Assembly (NCBI GenBank): GCA_020439745.1
Contig: JAGQSC010000015.1
Location: forward strand, 310,001 to 374,000
DNA length: 64,000 nucleotides
Reading direction: 5' to 3'
Source: Acidobacteriota bacterium
GTDB taxonomy: Bacteria > Acidobacteriota > Holophagae > Acanthopleuribacterales > Acanthopleuribacteraceae
Every line of letters starts with the position of its first letter. The first letter of the stretch is position 1. Shown here piece by piece: positions 21,361-24,247 of the stretch. The notes beneath the pieces were generated by a model, which was not told the DNA's origin, searched no databases, and saw only the letters and a list, made by a program, of their open reading frames with translations. Position numbers and translations under genes: made by a program.

Positions 21361-21684
21361 ATGTCAAAACCGATTGTCGCCAATACAGACGACTTTAACG
21401 CTGTGGTTACAGAAAGCAAAGGCCTGACTCTGGTCGACTTTTGGGCGCCCTGGTGCGGACCTTGCCGACTACTTGCACCGACTTTAGAACAGGTCGCTAA
21501 CGAAATGGACGGAAAGGTTCAAATCGTTAAGGTTGACATTGACCAGAATCCTGAAATCAGCGCTCAATACCGGGTGATGAATATCCCTTTCATGGTGCTC
21601 TTCAAAGATGGCAACCGAGTGGACCAATTACTTGGCAACCACCCAAAAGCAAAGATCACAGCGATGATACAAAACCATCTTTGA
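21361..21684 (+). CDS. trxA: thioredoxin
   Basis: The 107-residue protein has the classical redox motif WCGPC (C32, C35), FWAPWC context, and the cis-proline loop NIPFMVLF. It reduces disulfides in cytoplasmic proteins using thioredoxin reductase. ATG 21361 is chosen because GGAGG precedes it; an in-frame ATG five codons earlier would overlap that site. Confidence 0.97.
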
Positions 21685-22069
21685 CACAAGTGGTTTAGCG
21701 AAAAACACGCAAACACTTCACTCCAAACAACTTATTCGATCGTCATAGTTTTGACACCGAAACTAATCAGACTCCGTGTGCGTGGGCAAAATGCATCAAA
21801 ATTCAGGCCGGCGCCGCCAAATACAGACCTAACGCAAATATCATCAGCTAGTTAGGACCATTTTGGTTGCGTAACCGATAACCAATAAGTGCCGCGCTTG
21901 CACTGTCAACAATTTGACCCACCCGACCCATATGTCAATCAGTTGACATATGGGCGAGCACCCATCATACGGTTATGCTGTTTATTTTCAGTGGTTTACC
22001 GCTTTTGTGCGTTGTGGCCCGACTCTTGCTCCTTCATGCCTGTTGAAACACAAGCTGTTGGAGGCTGTC
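21685..22069. other. 385-nt intergenic region upstream of the sigma factor gene
   Basis: The stretch has no supportable gene. It holds a 6-bp inverted repeat (CCTAAC...GTTAGG, about 21828-21856), two GTCAA-N4-TTGAC palindromes (see next entry), and a TATGCT at 21974-21979 without a suitably placed -35. A frame open from 21950 joins the sigma gene but has no conserved residues before 22070. No tRNA or clear terminator for trxA was seen. Confidence 0.6.
21905..21954. promoter_or_regulatory. tandem palindromic operator candidates (GTCAA-N4-TTGAC)
   Basis: Two copies of the same dyad occur 29 nt apart: GTCAA-N4-TTGAC at 21905-21918 and again at 21934-21947. In the second copy the arms extend to a perfect 12-bp inverted repeat (CCCATATGTCAA / TTGACATATGGG, 21927-21954, 4-nt centre). 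There is no T-run after it, so it is not an intrinsic terminator. The position, 116-165 nt before the sigma ATG, suits an operator for a dimeric regulator. Confidence 0.55.
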
Positions 22070-22840
22070 ATGGGTAGAAACAAGGTAATCGTTGAAGAGC
22101 CAGATATTTCCATCTGCTCCCGCGATGAGGTCATCGAAAGTTATCTGCCTTTGGTCAGGTACCTTGCCCAGCACATCAGCCACAAGTTACCCGCCCACGT
22201 GGATCTGGAGGATTTGGTTCATGCAGGTGTTTTGGGGTTAATCGATGCGGTTGACAAGTTTGATGCGGAGCGTGGCATTAAGTTTCGCACCTATGCCGAT
22301 TTCCGTATCCGCGGCGCCATTCTCGACAGCTTGCGAAGTCTTGATTGGGTACCCCGCTCGATCCGCAAACAGAAGAAGATTATTGATCAAACCTGCGCTC
22401 GCCTGGAACAACGCTACGGTCGCCAAGTCACCGAGGACGAGATCTGCCATGAATTGGACATCGACATTCAGGAATATTACCGTTTGACGGACATCACCAA
22501 GAACGTGAACCAGAGTCGGTTCATCGAAGTGAGTAACAGTGACATCATTGGCGGTGAAGACGGAGATACAGGGCTCGCCTTTGTTGTTGACGAAAAGGCT
22601 GCTGACCCGTTTGAGGTGTATAAGAACCAGGAAACGATCGAGAACATTGCCGAAGCACTCAAGCGACTGCCCGAAAAAGAGCAGCAGGTTGTGAGCATGT
22701 ACTACTTTGATGAACTGACCATGAAAGAGATTGGCATGGTGATGAAAATAACGGAATCTAGAGTGTCCCAATTGCACACCAAAGCCATGAACCGCCTGCG
22801 TGCCACGATGTCGAGCAAGCGCTTCGCCGCAGTGTCTTAG
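22070..22840 (+). CDS. fliA: FliA/WhiG-type RNA polymerase sigma factor (sigma-28 family)
   Basis: The 256-residue protein has regions 2 (YLPLVRYLAQHIS...DLVHAGVLGLIDAVDKFD...FRTYADFRIRGAILDSLRSLDWVPRS), 3 (RQVTEDEICHELDI) and 4 (LPEKEQQVVSMYYFDELTMKEIGMVM...SRVSQLHTKAM). DWVPRS and this spacing are typical of FliA/WhiG. Such sigma factors drive flagellar or developmental genes; no flagellar gene is in the window, so the regulon is unknown. ATG 22070 follows TTGGAGG with six bases between. The stop codon overlaps the convergent membrane-protein gene by 4 nt. Confidence 0.88.
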   Translation: MGRNKVIVEEPDISICSRDEVIESYLPLVRYLAQHISHKLPAHVDLEDLVHAGVLGLIDAVDKFDAERGIKFRTYADFRIRGAILDSLRSLDWVPRSIRKQKKIIDQTCARLEQRYGRQVTEDEICHELDIDIQEYYRLTDITKNVNQSRFIEVSNSDIIGGEDGDTGLAFVVDEKAADPFEVYKNQETIENIAEALKRLPEKEQQVVSMYYFDELTMKEIGMVMKITESRVSQLHTKAMNRLRATMSSKRFAAVS

Positions 22841-23670
22841 CCAGCCATTGACATCATAATTCCGGCACCTACGCCGACGATCACGGACCAGACATACACT
22901 GCGCCCCACATGCAAAAGAACCAAAGTTTGCGGCCCGTGCAGTGCAATGCGATAAAGACCGGATACGCCAAGAAAGCAGCCAGCTGAGTGGCAAGAGAGG
23001 GCCAGCCAGGAGCCACGAACACCACGATAAAGGGTGCAAAGAACATCATAAGGAGAAAGAAACCCCAACCAAGCCCTACTTCGGTAAATGCGATTTTCAT
23101 CAACCAGATCAGAGTAATCAGGTGCACCAAAGCGAATATCGCCAGCAAAATCAAGCATGCCACAAGAATGTTCAAGAGCCGTTCGTTACCGGCCAAAGCC
23201 GCTTCCACCTCTTGCTTGAACGATTCAGCCTGTTGCACCATGTCTTCTTGATCGCTGAGGAAATCGGGTAGACCCTTATTTTCCTGTTTATCCGTCACCA
23301 CGGGATCGCTTTCTAACTGTTTGGTGTCTTCCAACACCACTTGGCCACTATTCTTGCGTTGGGCTTGATACTGAGTGACCTGGGCATAAAGACTGCCATC
23401 ATTTTCTATGGCGGCCTCTCGCCCTTCAGCCATGGCCTTGCGCTTCTCGTTCGTCTTAAGCTCGGTGGTTTCCTCGTCCACCAGGGAGCGGGCCATGACC
23501 ATCCGTTCGCCGCGATGATCGGTAAAATGAACCTCATCTCCCAGATATTCAATGTCGCCGCGAACTTCAAATGATCGGCCATCGCGCAACACCAAGATAC
23601 TGGGTTCATACAGATCCTGTACCTCCATGCCAGCCTGTGCCAAAAAGCACATCGCCAAAGTAACCCACAT
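22837..23670 (-). CDS. membrane protein with N-terminal signal sequence, unknown function
   Basis: The 277-residue protein starts with a signal-like segment (MWVTLAMCFLAQAG), then a soluble part with a small beta-rich start (SILVLRDGRSFEVRGDIEYLG, like short SH3-type folds seen in envelope proteins), a charged linker, and three or four membrane helices at the C-terminus (about residues 165-275). ATG 23670 is chosen because GAGG lies five bases upstream; the earlier ATG at 23688 overlaps scpB. It follows scpB closely and may be in its operon. I do not recognise a family. Confidence 0.7.
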   Translation of the reverse strand: MWVTLAMCFLAQAGMEVQDLYEPSILVLRDGRSFEVRGDIEYLGDEVHFTDHRGERMVMARSLVDEETTELKTNEKRKAMAEGREAAIENDGSLYAQVTQYQAQRKNSGQVVLEDTKQLESDPVVTDKQENKGLPDFLSDQEDMVQQAESFKQEVEAALAGNERLLNILVACLILLAIFALVHLITLIWLMKIAFTEVGLGWGFFLLMMFFAPFIVVFVAPGWPSLATQLAAFLAYPVFIALHCTGRKLWFFCMWGAVYVWSVIVGVGAGIMMSMAG

Positions 23671-23677
23671 ATCTACC

Positions 23678-24247
23678 TCAATTCTCACTCTGTGGTTGAT
23701 CTTCTAAGGCCAATTCTACTTGATCCATGTGTTGTTTCTTGAATTCCTCCAGTGAAGGCAACTCCGACAGATCATTCAATCCAAAGTGAATCAAGAAGTC
23801 GCGCGTCGTCCCATACATCATAGGTCTTCCTACAACCTTGCGCCGTCCCAACATACGTATCAGCTTCTTTTCCAACAAGTTCTTAACGATACTACCTACC
23901 GATGTCACCATACGCATTTCAGCGATCTCTACAGCAGTTATGGGTTGCTTATAGGCTATCAACGCGAGCGACTCTAGCGTGGCCAAACTCAACCGGGACT
24001 TGCGGCTCTCCATCAAGAACTCACGTATATCATCGGCGAATTCAGGTTTCGTCTCCAGTCGAAAACCACCGCCAATTTCGGCCAACATCATTGATGAATC
24101 CGACAACCGCGATTCCAGTTGGGACAAACCCCTTCTGGCCTCATCCTCGGAACAATCTAATACGTCTTGCATGCGCGCCAAGGTCACGGGTTCATCGGCA
24201 ACGAACAGGAGCGCTTCAATACGCGCATCAAGTGGCATGGTGCTCAT
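23678..24247 (-). CDS. scpB: segregation and condensation protein B
   Basis: ScpB is a winged-helix protein that dimerises and binds ScpA in the SMC condensin complex. The 189-residue protein has the typical EALLFVADEPVT start, RLSLATLESLALIAYKQPIT and a GRPMMYGTT...FLIHFGL C-terminal region. It lies 36 nt after scpA on the same strand. The second ATG, three codons in, is an alternative start. The smc gene itself is not in the window. Confidence 0.95.
   Translation of the reverse strand: MSTMPLDARIEALLFVADEPVTLARMQDVLDCSEDEARRGLSQLESRLSDSSMMLAEIGGGFRLETKPEFADDIREFLMESRKSRLSLATLESLALIAYKQPITAVEIAEMRMVTSVGSIVKNLLEKKLIRMLGRRKVVGRPMMYGTTRDFLIHFGLNDLSELPSLEEFKKQHMDQVELALEDQPQSEN

Follow-up and report, generated by a model that had tools for sequence, protein, structure and literature searches.

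The window, a stretch of 64,000 nucleotides from a member of the Acanthopleuribacteraceae (genome G000), contains a gene for a FliA/WhiG-type sigma factor behind a 385-nt gap, which extends from the stop of a thioredoxin gene at 21684 to the ATG of fliA at 22070. The initial annotation had described in this gap a pair of GTCAA-N4-TTGAC dyads spaced by 29 nt, one with perfect 12-bp arms and neither followed by a T-run, and each of these points was reproduced. Two elements were added to that description, a third weaker dyad and a sigma54-type promoter. The features of the locus are as follows.

21361-21684, + strand: thioredoxin gene, the 5' neighbour that bounds the gap, with the same neighbour in the congener G001
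21742-21755, no strand: weak distal dyad GTCATAGTTTTGAC, its GTCAA half carrying one mismatch
21905-21918, no strand: putative operator 1, GTCAACAATTTGAC, FleQ/FlrA-type box
21927-21954, no strand: putative operator 2, extended, with the core GTCAATCAGTTGAC at 21934-21947
22015-22029, + strand: sigma54-type -24/-12 promoter TGGCCCGACTCTTGC, TGGC-N7-TTGC, kept in G001
22060-22064, + strand: ribosome-binding site GGAGG, from the sequence
22070-22840, + strand: fliA/whiG-family sigma factor gene, 256 aa, TIGR02479

The 29 nt were measured between the starts of GTCAACAATTTGAC and GTCAATCAGTTGAC, and the 12-bp arms of operator 2 are CCCATATGTCAA (21927-21938) and TTGACATATGGG (21943-21954). From the sigma54-type promoter, transcription of fliA is predicted to start at about 22041. 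The fliA product scored 258.2 bits against the FliA_WhiG model TIGR02479 (cut-off, 189.6), and the regions recognizing the -35 and -10 elements were found, region 4.2 (ITESRVSQLHTKAM) being common to G000 and its flagellated relatives. A membrane protein gene without an NCBIfam match lies 3' of fliA (window 22837-23688, - strand) and occupies the same place in G001.

Conservation of the fliA sites was assessed between two species, G000 and one congeneric genome taken from the ortholog search, G001. The FliA ortholog of G001 is 67% identical and is located in the same gene order, including the thioredoxin neighbour; the gap before it has otherwise diverged and aligns poorly with that of G000. 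Within this gap, the dyads GTCAAAAAATTGAC and then GTCAAAACATTGAC were found exactly 29 nt apart, together with a degenerate distal dyad, TTGTCATTTTTTTGACAC (L093 1107-1124), which is the counterpart of GTCATAGTTTTGAC. The sigma54 promoter TGGCCTAACTCTTGC is the counterpart of TGGCCCGACTCTTGC and follows the second dyad after 67 nt in both species. Absence of the motif from orthologous regions had been named in the initial annotation as the finding that would count against it; the dyads are present there.

In dinucleotide shuffles of the G000 gap, two such dyads were obtained in 0/20,000 and at least one dyad in 20/20,000; for the G001 gap, the corresponding numbers were 0/20,000 and 31/20,000. 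The genome-wide search that the initial annotation had also suggested was less discriminating. The exact 14-mer occurs at 11 sites in the whole 5.1-Mb genome of G000, against 4 for the reversed control, and eight of the nine sites outside the fliA gap lie inside genes, the ninth preceding an ArsR-type gene. Because the enrichment is mild and most sites are within genes, the motif by itself is weak evidence, and assignment from the exact 14-mer alone was rejected as unspecific; pairing, spacing, position and conservation are what make the dyads specific. When eight genomes were scanned for GTCA-N6-TGAC followed after 40-100 nt by TGGC-N7-TTGC, fliA was the only match in G000 and in G001, and the reversed control of this composite pattern gave 0 matches. 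A genome-wide frequency only about 2.7 times that of the control would suit chance palindromes, but the shuffles yielded no pair for either species and the 29- and 67-nt spacings are identical in G001, which we count as already refuting chance; an accidental origin is barely conceivable. The two dyads are real and conserved, well beyond chance expectation. The ninth outside site, an exact GTCAATAACTTGAC about 40 nt before the ArsR-type regulator gene (L005 1501-1514; G000:C33:265395), may be the operator of that regulator itself or a chance occurrence.

The dyads might also be read at the RNA level, as a hairpin or terminator ending the thioredoxin transcript, and the second dyad could indeed fold into a stem of 12 bp closed by a 4-nt loop. 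Against this, the T-run is missing, the stem from the first dyad would be only 5 bp, and G001 retains just the core of 5-7 bp, as two dyads at a fixed spacing to the promoter, the 12-bp arm extension of operator 2 not being conserved. Because only the core and not the extension is conserved, a protein site is indicated rather than an RNA stem. On the grounds of the missing T-run and the unconserved extension, the hairpin or terminator was rejected, and we regard it as extremely improbable.

The initial annotation had taken the dyads for operators of a dimeric regulator that it could not name. The operator part of this reading is upheld by the spacing kept in G001, the missing T-run and the arm extension that is not kept, whereas the regulator can now be given a candidate. 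The window dyad matches the FleQ/FlrA box, GTCA-N6-TGAC, which is known from Pseudomonas, Vibrio and Desulfovibrio (PMC8125075, PMC10723142, PMC4641369). The FleQ box has been published as GTCaNTAAAtTGAC for P. aeruginosa and as GTCAaAAAAtTGAC for P. putida (PMC8125075), the presumed binding partner being a symmetric HTH dimer (PMC10723142). Every ortholog of the FlrA/FleQ-like regulator DVU2894 in Desulfovibrio has yGTCA-N6-TGACr upstream of its gene (PMC4641369). Dyads of the form GTCA(A)-N4/6-(T)TGAC were found here near sigma54 promoters of the flagellar cascade. The TGGC-N7-TTGC promoter at fliA has the correct spacing and is conserved, and RpoN is encoded in G000, with ARRTVAKYR at a protein C-terminus (near C2:280332).

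About 21 enhancer-binding proteins (EBPs) are encoded in G000, and the one with the best match to the FleQ HTH among the 21 is the candidate G000:C8:167531-168895, which comprises a receiver, an AAA+ domain (PF00158) and a Fis-type HTH (PF02954). In a comparison with PDB, its HTH matched Pseudomonas FleQ best (E 9e-8), followed by ZraR (1e-4). Its orthologs are 81% identical in G001 and 57% identical in the flagellated relative G002. In all three genomes, a box is located 3-7 nt after the -10 element of the candidate's own sigma70-like promoter (GTCAAATATTTGGC with one mismatch in G000, GTCAAAGGATTGAC in G001, GTCAAAATGTTGAC in G002), a position that has the layout of autorepression and would tie the protein to the box. 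The candidate is not FleQ itself, which is ruled out by its canonical receiver (Response_reg PF00072, E 5e-25, retaining Asp, Thr and Lys) and by the absence of the c-di-GMP-binding motif LFRS from the candidate in G000, G001 and G002; the degenerate, non-phosphorylatable FleQ receiver PF06490 was likewise absent in a profile search of the candidate. The protein would work like FleQ/FlrA. Its AAA+ loop reads GAFTDA (GAYTDA in G001) in place of GAFTGA, and variants such as GAFTDA are listed as compatible with activation (PMC4641369). GAFTDA replaces GAFTGA in four of the approximately 21 EBPs of G000 (L123, L134, L135 and L137).

In the flagellated relative G002, a box and a sigma54 promoter precede the fliL...flhB-flhA-flhF-flhG-fliA-fliM operon, FlhG being present (L189), and a second box with a sigma54 promoter precedes flgB. 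In the stretch G002:C45:64210-68210 (L272), the latter box is located between flgB and a gene for an FlrC/FleR-like EBP, with TGGCTTGTTCTTTGC about 180 nt downstream of it. G000 contains no better match to this FlrC/FleR-like protein than the paralog L123 (43%), and the protein was therefore rejected as the regulator; the flgB neighbour has apparently been lost in G000, with no clear ortholog. In the flagellated genomes G003, G005 and G006 (L192, L199 and L200), the fliL sigma54 promoter TGGCTCGATTTTTGC is kept, the FleQ box was not found before fliL, and no clear ortholog of the candidate was found, the best matches being only 43-45% identical with a different HTH. As both box and ortholog are missing in these three genomes and both are present in G002, regulator and box occur together. 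The master regulator of G003, G005 and G006 must bind a site other than the FleQ box.

Sulfidibacter corallicola, of the same family, moves by means of a polar flagellum (PMC8841776). Flagellin was found in G002-G007 but in neither G000 nor G001; rod and hook proteins were absent from G000, and FlhA, detected in the positive control G002, was missing in both G000 and G001. These absences were judged on a 97%-complete draft (G000) and a 95%-complete congener (G001). They rule out active flagellar regulation in G000, and we infer that the genus of the window is an aflagellate member of the Acanthopleuribacteraceae. In family f3 of the same class, no FliA ortholog was found, the matches being RpoD-like only, and flagellin was absent from G010, the one f3 member examined; retention of FliA is thus not automatic.

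Possible targets of FliA were sought with the sigma28 pattern T[AC]A[AT]G-N15-GNCGNTAA, read by eye from the flagellin promoters of relatives. G000 shows no enrichment of this pattern (11 matches with both strands counted, 13 in controls), and only orthologous promoter pairs, not the genome-wide pattern, carry weight. Two canonical intergenic matches in G000, TAAAGTTGACACCATTCACCGCCGATAA and TAAAGGCAACTACACTTTCGGCCGATAA, lie directly 5' of two histidine kinase genes, one encoding a short HisKA-HATPase protein and the other a PAS-PAS-HisKA-HATPase-REC hybrid.

C60:22860-22887 and C60:308356-308383: the two sigma28-type promoters of the kinase genes

The kinase orthologs of G001 are 40% and 44% identical and carry TAAAGACTATTGCACGTCTAACCGATAG and TAAAGCATGTTTGAATTCGGTCCGATAA in the corresponding position; TAAAG-N15-NCCGATA precedes both kinases in both species. 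These two genes are the best candidates for FliA targets, as predicted from their promoters. A relaxed scan covered 1.62 Mb, about one third of G000. In the first 1.22 Mb, it gave one other such intergenic match upstream of a gene, the sigma28-like TAAAATTCCCATCATATTTACCGATA (G000:C33:45907-45932, - strand), located 5' of a REC-GGDEF-EAL gene that is followed by a histidine kinase; the further 0.4 Mb contained no added TAAA-N15/16-NCCGATA site. The REC-GGDEF-EAL gene is a possible third target of FliA.

We consider it highly probable that the dyads are activating sites of a FleQ/FlrA-type EBP, most likely C8:167531-168895, which would drive fliA through sigma54 in an autorepressing circuit that was kept after the flagellum was lost and would now serve signalling genes. 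A FleQ-like dimer is predicted to occupy the dyads, with sites near -129 and -100 and a weak one near -292. The bound EBP would contact sigma54-RNA polymerase waiting at TGGCCCGACTCTTGC, and its ATP hydrolysis would open the promoter of the sigma factor gene. The candidate would repress its own gene through the box overlapping its start site. The circuit would have been inherited from flagellated ancestors, in which the box preceded the fliL...fliA and flgB operons, and retained after loss of the whole flagellum; the FliA sigma factor would now transcribe signalling genes, with the two histidine kinases as best candidates.

The sites could instead serve repression, with a FleQ-like protein silencing fliA while another activator drives the sigma54 promoter. 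FleQ does repress at some promoters (PMC10723142), the box at the candidate's own gene is in a repressing position, and the GAFTDA loop could be taken in the same sense. The fliA boxes, however, are placed some 100-130 nt ahead of the sigma54 start, where enhancers usually sit, and not over the promoter, and the box in G002 stands before flagellar operons of the sigma54 type, which require an activator; we therefore hold repression to be unlikely. About equally improbable is a coincidental resemblance to the FleQ box, with the dyads serving as operators for some other dimeric regulator, such as another EBP. Another of the approximately 20 EBPs could be the fliA activator, given the number encoded and the predicted nature of the candidate's binding, and the exact 14-mer recurs 40 nt before the ArsR-type gene (L005). 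In opposition to this, the box recurs at the candidate's own promoter in three species, the candidate HTH is FleQ-like, and the candidate and the flagellar boxes have been gained or lost jointly across the family.

FliA-type sigma factors that serve non-flagellar programmes include sigma28 in Chlamydia and WhiG in Streptomyces, and the role predicted here for FliA resembles theirs in being non-flagellar. We know of no FleQ-type box or sigma54 control of the genes for either factor. The proposed system shares with Pseudomonas FleQ the sequence and symmetry of the box (PMC8125075, PMC10723142), the RTTL-EK recognition helix, the sigma54-linked flagellar promoters and the occurrence of multiple boxes at some of the promoters; it differs in that the candidate has a canonical receiver and GAFTDA and lacks LFRS, and in that G000 lacks flagellar targets. 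Desulfovibrio DVU2894 is similar in having yGTCA-N6-TGACr 5' of its own gene, predicted autoregulation and a variant GAFTxA loop, but is described as a single-component regulator linked to flagellar genes (PMC4641369).

A precedent for retention is Legionella, in which non-flagellated species keep fliA and flgM, fliA being retained in L. oakridgensis and L. londiniensis, and fleQ and fleN also in L. londiniensis (PMC5655016). As a flagellar sigma factor is there retained after loss of the flagellum, the retention seen here is of a known kind. In contrast to Legionella, where fliA of L. pneumophila is FleQ-dependent and RpoN-independent (PMC5655016), the present case concerns another phylum, a conserved sigma54 promoter at fliA, and histidine kinases as predicted targets. 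The literature searched yielded no paper that links FleQ and FliA with Acidobacteria. The FleQ box and the keeping of flagellar regulators after flagellum loss in Legionella are already known; what is new, as far as found, is their occurrence in this lineage, with the sigma54/operator architecture intact and a predicted rewiring to kinases.

Orphan flagellar regulators are usually taken as relics. Here, an operator pair, a promoter and a sigma factor gene are kept at fixed spacing in two species amid drifted DNA, and predicted promoters of the sigma factor are conserved at two kinases. We lean slightly towards the view that the FleQ-like, sigma54 and FliA cascade has been kept with its regulatory DNA and rewired to sensor kinases, and perhaps to the REC-GGDEF-EAL c-di-GMP enzyme, in a signalling programme other than motility. 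With one candidate regulator and a short DNA motif to work with, the locus provides a testable case for the role that a flagellar hierarchy may have without a flagellum.
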